This document shows positions 6,717 through 28,489 of a stretch of 64,000 nucleotides of DNA, piece by piece. The first letter of the stretch is position 1. Every line of letters starts with the position of its first letter. Origin of the DNA: a virus; IMG/VR virus record IMGVR_UViG_3300028920_000001, positions 188,001-252,000 of that record; one strand, 5' to 3'. The notes under the pieces are model-generated. The model was given only the letters and a program-made list of their open reading frames with translations. It ran no database searches and had not been told where the DNA came from. The position numbers and the translations under genes are program-made.

Positions 6717-7064
6717 GGCCCAGTGGCGGAATGGCATACGCAGGGGATTTCAACGGAATCCCATCAACAGAAATGTTGATCCAAAAAAACCCTGGAAATT
6801 GCTGGAAACCCCTTAGAGCCTGATACACCACAACATGACTGGAAACGGTAAGTGTGACGGTTTGAAAAGAATCAGGATTGGGCAATCAGCAGCCGAGCCC
6901 CTTGACTGGGGAAGGTTCAGAGACTCGCGCTCAGGGCACCTGACCAGATAATGCTGAAGGTGAAGATACAGTCCAGACCACAACGGAAACGGCTCGCGAA
7001 ATCGAGAGTGGTACGAAAATCCCTCGCCCTAACGGGATTGTGAGTTCGAATCTCACCTGGGCTA
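6717..7064 (+). tRNA. tRNA-Leu(UAA) interrupted by a group I intron
   Basis: Exons 6717-6750 and 7016-7064. Acceptor GGCCCAG/CTGGGCT, D stem GCG/CGC, anticodon stem GGGGA/TCCCT with loop TTTAAAA (anticodon TAA), long variable arm CCC-TAAC-GGG, T arm GTGAG-TTCGAAT-CTCAC and discriminator A, all as expected for Leu. CCA is not encoded. The intron lies between U34 and A35, the same site as in the cyanobacterial/plastid tRNA-Leu(UAA) intron. Confidence 0.92.
6751..7015 (+). ncRNA. Group I intron (265 nt) in the tRNA-Leu anticodon loop
   Basis: P1 pairs the exon end GGGATTT with GGAATCCC at 6755-6762, giving the required U-G wobble at the splice site. P2 is ATCAACA-GAAA-TGTTGAT. The conserved core is present: P (AATTGCTGGAAA), Q (AATCAGCAGCC), R (GTTCAGAGACT), S (AAGATACAGTCC). 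The last intron base is G (omega-G, 7015). There is no room for a homing endonuclease gene, so it is a minimal ribozyme that should self-splice. Confidence 0.92.
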
Positions 7065-7171: not shown

Positions 7172-7244
7172 GGGAGTATAGCTCAGTCGGCAGAGCCACC
7201 GGCTTTTAACCGGTAGGTCCAGAGTTCGAGTCTCTGTGCTCCCA
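7172..7244 (+). tRNA. tRNA-Lys(UUU)
   Basis: Acceptor GGGAGTA/TGCTCCC, anticodon arm ACCGG-CTTTTAA-CCGGT (anticodon TTT), T arm CAGAG-TTCGAGT-CTCTG, discriminator A. CCA is not fully encoded. No intron. Confidence 0.93.
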
Positions 7245-7248
7245 CAAA

Positions 7249-8779: not shown

Positions 8780-8790
8780 ATTCCTGTTTC

Positions 8791-8885
8791 GGGGGAGTAG
8801 CTTAGCCTGGTTCAAAGCACCGGCCCTATAACCCGGTTAGCGTCTGATAAGCGCGAGATCGTGGGTTCAAATCCCACCTCCCCTA
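8791..8885 (+). tRNA. Unusual 95-nt tRNA, probably Ile, with two anticodon-like loops
   Basis: Acceptor GGGGGAG/CTCCCCT, D arm GCTT...AAGC and T arm GTGGG-TTCAAAT-CCCAC are normal. Between the D and T arms lie 41-42 nt instead of about 22. The last part, CTGATAA-GCGCG-AGATC, looks exactly like a tRNA-Ile(GAU) loop, 3' stem and variable region. Just before it, CCGG-CCCTATAAC-CCGG forms a second arm with TAT. It could be a class I tRNA-Ile with a 20-nt insertion, or a damaged or class II-like tRNA. Discriminator A at 8885. Confidence 0.6.
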
Positions 8886-8904
8886 CCGAAGATCTCGGTG
8901 CCTG

Positions 8905-24647: not shown

Positions 24648-25124
24648 TCAGTTGGCGCTGAACAGGGCCGCCAACTCCGCCTTGGCGGGGTCCTTGGCGC
24701 ACTCTTCGGCTCGGAAGTGGGCCGCGAGCTGCCGGCCGTATCGGGCCGTGATGGTCCGGGCCTGCTCCAGCTCCTCTCCCTCGAGGGTGCCCTCTTCGGC
24801 AGCCTTCTTGGCGAGCTTGGTGCCCACGACCGCGTGGCTTGACATGAAGCCCTGCCGGTTGCGGGTCTCGGTGGAACCGTTGGACTGCTCGGAAGCCGTC
24901 TGCCGGTCGTACAGGATGCCCAAGCATCGCACGCAGAACTCGTCGTCGGACTCGACCTGTGCGACGATGTCCTTCTTGCTGCGGAAGGGGTACGGCTTGG
25001 GATTCTTGTTGACGCGCTTCTTGCGGGTCTTCTTCGGGGCGGTTGCGGTTTCGGCCTGCACGGGTGCTTCTGCGGCCTCTTCCGCCTGGACTTCGATCGT
25101 CTCTGCGGTGTTGGTGTTGCTCAT
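24648..25124 (-). CDS. GFMSSHAV-family protein 1, 158 aa
   Basis: Start ATG 25124 (AGGAGAATCCCAA upstream) preferred to 25157. Acidic Ala/Glu-rich N-terminus, a basic patch KKTRKKRVNKNPK, then the family core: DEFCVRCLGILYDRQT, RNRQGFMSSHAVVGTKLAKK, RYGRQLAAHFRAEE. Paralogues at 27962 and 35473 share LYRRQT...RGFMSSHAV-GS...YTKQLAAH-RAEQ. Function unknown; more divergent and longer than the other two. Confidence 0.75.
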   Translation of the reverse strand: MSNTNTAETIEVQAEEAAEAPVQAETATAPKKTRKKRVNKNPKPYPFRSKKDIVAQVESDDEFCVRCLGILYDRQTASEQSNGSTETRNRQGFMSSHAVVGTKLAKKAAEEGTLEGEELEQARTITARYGRQLAAHFRAEECAKDPAKAELAALFSAN

Positions 25125-25299
25125 TTGGGATTCTCCTGGTTTGTCTGAGCGGAACAAGGTCCGCGTCGCAGTCCAGGGTACGTCGGCCCGCAGCGGATCT
25201 GCGCGGGTCTCTTCCCAATCAATTTTGCAACCTATTACTCAAAAACAAGACGGAAGCCGTATTGATCTGCGCGTACAGCAGCGCACGGAGGTCAAATCA
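25125..25299. promoter_or_regulatory. Divergent region between GFMSSHAV-1 and the KH gene
   Basis: No gene. Contains short GC-rich inverted repeats such as GCGGACCTTGTTCCGC (on the minus strand). Probably holds promoters for both genes. The rightward gene has CACGGAGGTCAAATCA directly before ATG 25300. Confidence 0.4.
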
Positions 25300-27961: not shown

Positions 27962-28357
27962 TCACACGCCGAACTTGGCGCGGATTTGCTCCTGGGCCTC
28001 TTCGTCCAGGTGCATCTGCTGCTCTGCCCGGAAATGGGCTGCGAGCTGCTTGGTGTAGCGGCAAGGGATCTCCTCGGCCTTCCCTTCCTCCTCTTCCGTC
28101 AGCTCCTCGCCCGAGATCACCTTCTCGGCGATCTTGCTGCCCCACACTGCGTGCGAGGACATGAAGCCACGACGGTTCTTGTACTTGGTATCCTTCTCAT
28201 CCCGCTCGTCTTCCGTCTGACGCCGGTACAGGACGAGGATGCACTGCAGACGGAAGTCCGCATCCTCTTCCAGACGTGCCTTGACCTGCGCCTTGGTCAC
28301 GTACGGGTAGGAGTTGGTGGGGTTGGTGTTGATTGCAAAAGTCGGTTGGTTGCTCAT
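27962..28357 (-). CDS. GFMSSHAV-family protein 2, 131 aa
   Basis: Start ATG 28357 after GGAGGTAACGCAACC; the longer frame is not used. Core: VTKAQVKARLEEDADFRLQC, LVLYRRQTEDERDEKDTKYK, RRGFMSSHAVWGSKIAEKVI, RYTKQLAAHFRAEQ. Very close to protein 3 at 35473, including NPT-NSYPYVTK near the N-terminus. Alone on this strand, flanked by a terminator and a conserved RNA element. Function unknown. Confidence 0.78.
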   Translation of the reverse strand: MSNQPTFAINTNPTNSYPYVTKAQVKARLEEDADFRLQCILVLYRRQTEDERDEKDTKYKNRRGFMSSHAVWGSKIAEKVISGEELTEEEEGKAEEIPCRYTKQLAAHFRAEQQMHLDEEAQEQIRAKFGV

Positions 28358-28384
28358 GGTTGCGTTACCTCCAGTGTCCGATAC
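28358..28384 (-). promoter_or_regulatory. GTATC/GGAGG leader of GFMSSHAV-2
   Basis: On the minus strand: AACGTATCGGACACTGGAGGTAACGCAACC then ATG. Same leader type as on the plus strand elsewhere. Confidence 0.55.
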
Positions 28385-28489
28385 GTTGCGCAGCAGGAGA
28401 CTTCCGGCAGCGGAAATGAGCAGCAACCAAACGTAAACGCTGATGGGGAAGAGTAGCAGCAGCGCGAATTAACTGATTTTAAATACTTT

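Follow-up and report, generated by a model that had tools for sequence, protein, structure and literature searches.

What kind of intron interrupts the tRNA-Leu(UAA) gene of this phage, and how did it come to lie between U34 and A35, the position of the intron in the same gene of cyanobacteria and plastids? The tRNA-Leu(UAA) intron is the textbook example of an intron held to predate chloroplasts, and the extent of its sideways movement has long been argued. According to a 2014 review, every group I intron seen in phages until then lay in a protein-coding gene, despite the many tRNA genes of phages (PMC3984707). Enigmatic introns in phage tRNAs were described, in what was stated to be a first report, for the Lak megaphages (Devoto et al., 2019; PMC6784885), and tRNAscan-SE 2.0 is stated not to have been built for tRNAs that contain group I introns (PMC8450103). 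A search of open-access papers turned up no account of a group I intron in a tRNA gene of a phage.

The window, i.e., the whole stretch of 64,000 nucleotides analysed here, covers positions 188001–252000 of the 426,960-base (~427 kb) virus record IMGVR_UViG_3300028920_000001. A large-terminase gene is present in the record (PHROG phrog_2, E 1.2e-24); searches of the genome with the Pfam terminase and Gp23 profiles gave no match, whereas the PHROG terminase did match. Phage-family genes in the window include those for an ATP-dependent DNA ligase, a dNMP kinase and a DHH phosphoesterase; the best match of the ligase is in LR745208.1, an uncultured phage genome of 485 kb (37% identity). The features of the locus, and the evidence for each, are as follows.

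6717–6750, plus strand: 5′ exon, nucleotides 1–34 of tRNA-Leu(UAA) (acceptor strand, D arm, anticodon 5′ stem, U32 U33 U34); sequence, and ARAGORN on the joined exons.
6751–7015, plus strand: group I intron of 265 nt, ORF-less, with a terminal G at 7015; RF00028, boundaries set by the tRNA reconstruction and P1.
6756–6762, plus strand: internal guide sequence GAAUCCC, pairing with exon positions 6744–6750 (GGGAUUU) as P1; sequence.
6763–6780, plus strand: P2, a 7-bp hairpin with a GAAA loop; GNRA cap in all seven aligned introns, compensatory changes.
6790–6795, plus strand: P3 5′ strand CCCUGG, pairing with 6931–6936; covariation.
6799–6804, plus strand: P4 5′ strand UUGCUG, pairing with 6887–6892 (CAGCAG); conserved in all seven.
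6810–6882, plus strand: extended P5 domain, with P5, P5a, the P5b hairpin ACUG-GAAA-CGGU and an A-rich strand; covariation, and the MFE fold agrees.
6922–6925, plus strand: P7 5′ strand GACU, pairing with 6970–6973 (AGUC); invariant among relatives.
6931–6936, plus strand: P3 3′ strand UCAGGG; alignment and pair counts.
6970–7015, plus strand: P7 3′ strand and P9 domain, closing stem ACCAC...GUGGU (6977–6981/7008–7012), of the tRNA-Leu kind; motif AGTCCRGACYACAA.
7016–7064, plus strand: 3′ exon of tRNA-Leu(UAA), from A35 to the discriminator A, with a long variable arm; ARAGORN on the joined exons.
7172–7245, plus strand: tRNA-Lys(UUU), the next gene, of which a second copy lies in the main tRNA array of the phage.

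Removal of 6751–7015 leaves an 83-nt molecule that ARAGORN calls as tRNA-Leu(taa); no tRNA was called by the same program in the unspliced 6717–7064. The insertion point splits the anticodon UAA after U34. A reading made earlier from the sequence alone had described a 265-nt group I intron at this place, with a U-G pair in P1, a GAAA-capped P2, the core strings of the ribozyme and a terminal G, and had proposed a covariance search for the group I subtype. Each of these elements was recovered at the positions given above, and Rfam RF00028 accepts the fold, matching 6739–6996 over its full length (model positions 1–253) with 65 bits against a cut-off of 50 (E 3.3e-14). The same reading had equated the site with that of the cyanobacterial intron, and the Cyanobacteriota locus L064, taken through the same extraction, indeed has its intron at U34|A35. 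A pattern that combines intron and tRNA matches the window at a single place and none of 100 shuffled versions. The description of the intron as “minimal” holds insofar as it is ORF-less but not for its size, as other viral introns at the site are as short as 196 nt, with a median of 210. An extended P5 domain (about 6810–6882), absent from that description, sets the intron of the window apart.

P1 comprises seven base pairs and a 5-nt loop, with the wobble pair U34·G6756 at the 5′ splice site. Within it, an A of the guide faces an unusual exon base, U32, found in place of C32 only once among 119 viral introns at the site; since this unique U32 is matched by the A in the guide, P1 appears to have been kept under selection, or so the pair suggests. 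For the remainder of the fold, a group I structure drawn by hand was counted on an alignment of seven introns of the same type. In this alignment 96.8% of the cells were paired, as against 31–37% when one side was slid, and 28 of the 59 pairs had changed on both sides (14.8 in the shuffles and 2–12 in the slid controls); none of 500 shuffles reached the observed level on any measure. Compensatory pairs were found in P2, P3, P5, P5a, P5b, P8 and P9. In the P3 pseudoknot, four of the five counted pairs had changed on both sides with 100% of the cells paired, and P4 and P7 were also 100% paired while nearly or wholly invariant. The P2 of the window itself is offset by two columns in the alignment, so that the support for this helix comes from the relatives and from a direct reading of the hairpin in the window. 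The group I fold is thus strongly supported by covariation. P5b ends in a GAAA-type loop, followed by the A-rich strand, and the structure of the window-type introns has no P7.1 or P7.2. Compared by hand, the P5 extension recalls subgroups IC1/IC2, rather than IA, in view of the missing P7.1/P7.2, or IC3.

How does this intron relate to others at the same site? A pattern scan for the 3′ end of a group I intron followed by the 3′ half of tRNA-Leu(UAA) returned 21, and later 112, viral stretches and 57 bacterial ones, and both sides of the tRNA were rebuilt for each case. Complete introns at the site were found in 119 viral contigs (96 different introns; the total includes the intron of the window and a locus taken from the core scan described below) and in 32 bacterial cases. 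Two types occupy the site in viruses: most are IC3-like and a few have the extended P5 of the window, some viral introns with ORFs or long inserts being left unclassified by the motif rule. By their core motifs, all 32 resolved bacterial introns at the site are IC3-like. The window type was found in tRNA-Leu of loci L007, L024 (identical to L029), L025, L027, L171, L253 and L197, the last of which begins inside the intron and has a slightly variant P9; with the window this makes eight distinct introns. Across the viral and bacterial scans the extended-P5 tRNA-Leu introns occur in viral contigs only, and the extended-P5 core pattern was present in none of 291 genomes of the phylum to which the Cyanobacteriota locus belongs.

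A scan for the core only gave at least 119 viral stretches, nearly all of those listed lying outside tRNA-Leu. Those inspected interrupt protein genes; judged by eye, L145 has its intron in a capsid-like gene, L026 in that of a family B DNA polymerase, and L121 and L167 in a glycosyltransferase-like one. L018 and some of the genome matches (e.g., L066 and L068) were chance matches to the pattern and were left out. Among annotated phages no near-identical relative was found, the best blastn match being a partial one to introns of the ICP1 group (47% cover); megablast of 25 kb and a plasmid search gave no match. In Vibrio phage ICP1 (L002) at least one group I intron is present (144–435, 77.9 bits with Rfam), and a second stretch, near 1501–1781, resembles the intron of the window; the annotation of the record shows no intron at either place. 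L329, too, has a weak group I match, at about 510–791 (about 167809–168090 of LR745208.1, a record that carries no annotation), inside an apparent tRNA-Ile(UAU) split at U34|A35.

All relatives seen whole (L007, L024, L025, L027, L171 and L253) have an ORF in the loop of P1, and the introns measured are 642–768 nt long. The ORFs of L007 and L027 match HNH_3 (E 2e-6 and 2e-11, respectively). In L024, L027, L171 and L253 the HNH frame contains no stop codon over much of the ribozyme core; translated, this conserved stretch of RNA would read ...GQSAAEPL..EGSET..... The intron of the window has no ORF and hence no HNH endonuclease gene.

The core and the 3′ end of the intron point to different kin. 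The best alignment score of the window core is 96 to an intron in a protein gene (L145), as against 18 to any IC3 tRNA-Leu intron, and the features by which IC3 cores were recognised (a short P5 and AAATTCGG at J3/4-P4) are replaced in the window by an extended P5 and a different P4. For the P9 domain the order is reversed: the best identity among IC3 tRNA-Leu introns is 0.80, that among protein-gene introns 0.70. The P9 motif AGTCCRGACYACAA occurs in 14 of 14 viral IC3 tRNA-Leu introns, in 21 of 31 bacterial tRNA-Leu introns and in none of 81 protein-gene introns with the same core; these counts come from scans that did not demand the motif, two other scans having required bases that overlap it. 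Because the core is nearest to protein-gene introns and P9 to IC3 tRNA-Leu introns, the intron looks like a mosaic of a core of the phage protein-gene type and the P9 end of an IC3 tRNA-Leu intron. The likeness in P9 spans about 46 nt and could be a convergence imposed by the tRNA context.

Trees were built with two programs. FastTree, on 90 introns with the same core (82 from protein genes and eight from tRNA-Leu), placed the tRNA-Leu members in one clade (0.991). IQ-TREE, unrooted, on 68 introns and 177 columns, separated the extended-P5 from the IC3 introns at 100/100, with the tRNA-Leu extended-P5 members adjoining the split and not forming one clade. AU tests rejected none of the arrangements tried: a clade of the tRNA-Leu extended-P5 members (p 0.32), every tRNA-Leu intron on one side (p 0.455) or the window with IC3 (p 0.571).

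We consider it probable that the intron is an ORF-less ribozyme of a lineage that circulates among phages, and that this lineage arose by replacement of the core of a resident IC3 intron. The lineage would move among phages at exactly the U34|A35 site of tRNA-Leu, presumably spread by the HNH homing endonucleases encoded in the P1 loops of the relatives, the copy in the window being without such a gene; at its origin, as the mosaic suggests, an extended-P5 core of the protein-gene kind would have replaced that of an IC3 tRNA-Leu intron, with the P9 end retained. The fuller proposition, that U34|A35 is a homing site shared by phages and bacteria at which the phage lineage swapped the IC3 core from P3 to P8 for a protein-gene one and kept P9, we hold with about even confidence. 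As to activity, the fold predicts self-splicing: pairing of the guide with the 5′ exon would form P1, a guanosine held in P7 would attack after U34, the freed U34 would attack after G7015 and the exons would be joined, yielding a mature class II tRNA-Leu(UAA) able to read UUA codons.

The sequence-only reading had offered a choice between capture of the host tRNA with its intron and independent insertion at the same site. Both now seem disfavoured, and a lineage met so far in phages only, most of its members with HNH genes, at this same site is the better supported account. A purely independent insertion is at odds with a P9 domain of the tRNA-Leu kind, and capture of an intron of the cyanobacterial type with the uniformly IC3-like bacterial introns at the site and the absence of the core from the 291 genomes. 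A different history is simple descent, in which an IC3 tRNA-Leu intron gained a P5 extension, which gave rise to the window group, and members of that group later moved into phage protein genes, where their P9 changed. It agrees with the unrooted order (IC3, then tRNA-Leu extended-P5, then protein-gene extended-P5), with the AU test that leaves all tRNA-Leu introns on one side unrejected and with the P9 domain common to IC3 and the window type. We nevertheless regard it as unlikely, as protein-gene introns are far nearer in core to the window group than any IC3 intron is, and the protein-gene set is the more diverse (82 of 90), whereas the tRNA-Leu set is compact, with eight members.

The tRNA genes of the phage bear on whether the tRNA-Leu(UAA) of a host and the intron in it were taken up as one piece from some as yet unsampled bacterium. 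Besides the split gene, Rfam gives 38 other tRNA matches in the record, 37 above the cut-off and one below. The main array holds five tRNA-Leu genes, among them an intronless tRNA-Leu(UAA); each is 75–76 nt long and lacks the long variable arm that is normal for tRNA-Leu. With the anticodons GAG, UAG, CAA, CAG and UAA, they lie at 8784–12050 of L314 (about 109.8–113.0 kb of G000:C1). The class II build of the split tRNA, unlike theirs, and its position apart from the array, beside the second tRNA-Lys(UUU), indicate that it was probably acquired separately and independently. This much would suit a host origin, yet every resolved bacterial intron at the site is IC3-like, the core pattern is missing from the 291 genomes of the cyanobacterial phylum and the closest kin of the intron lie in phages and carry homing genes, which make such a capture quite improbable; in a variant, tRNA and intron may have been captured together from another phage. 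The class II copy may be better recognised by the host enzyme. At L289, an intron-bearing tRNA with a UAA anticodon has the short build of the tRNA-Leu genes of the array. That the intron is a degenerate, non-splicing relic is very improbable: the intronless tRNA-Leu(UAA) means that loss of the split copy might be tolerated, and the homing gene is gone, but all core pairs are intact, in the 7-bp P1 a compensatory change in the guide matches the unusual base of the exon, and the exons form a complete tRNA.

Other observations concern the surroundings. At 8791–8887 of the window lies a 97-nt tRNA, called as Ile(tat), whose variable arm is long and whose anticodon loop has nine bases; the call is doubtful, and this may instead be a class II tRNA of the tyrosine-like kind. 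At 542–616 of L316 (G000:C1:80542–80615), a tRNA of 74 nt with the anticodon TCA was labelled SeC; it is too short for a selenocysteine tRNA and perhaps reads UGA. A small protein of PHROG 21015, of unknown function, is encoded twice on the minus strand (24648–25157 and 27962–28426 of the window). Between 38000 and 42000, the G+C content falls from 0.43–0.60 in the first 38 kb to about 0.35–0.42 in the remainder.

The 119 viral contigs, with their 96 different introns, contradict the statement that phage group I introns are confined to protein genes. As tRNA finders miss split genes, phage tRNA inventories will be incomplete. Phages with an intron at this site, often with homing genes, would offer a vehicle for its sideways transfer, and the mosaic, if true, would show that exchange of the catalytic domain is possible for group I introns.

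Among known systems, the introns of the Lak megaphages likewise lie in phage tRNA genes and were described as enigmatic, not as group I. The IC3 intron of cyanobacterial and plastid tRNA-Leu(UAA) shares with that of the window the tRNA, the U34|A35 site, the U·G pair of P1, the terminal G and a similar P9; the window, however, has an extended P5, a GAAA-capped P5b, UUGCUG in P4 and GGUUCAGAGACU, where IC3 has a short P5 and AAATTCGG / GGTGTAGAGACT. The extended-P5 introns of phage protein genes (L145, L026, L121) have the same core from P3 to P8 and the same P5 domain, but interrupt protein ORFs and have other P9 ends (the tRNA-Leu P9 motif in 0 of 81). The seven tRNA-Leu relatives (L007, L024/L029, L025, L027, L171, L253 and L197) agree with the intron of the window in core, site and P9, the last in a variant form in L197; those whose length was taken, 642–768 nt, carry an ORF in the P1 loop, which in the intron of the window has 5 nt and no ORF.
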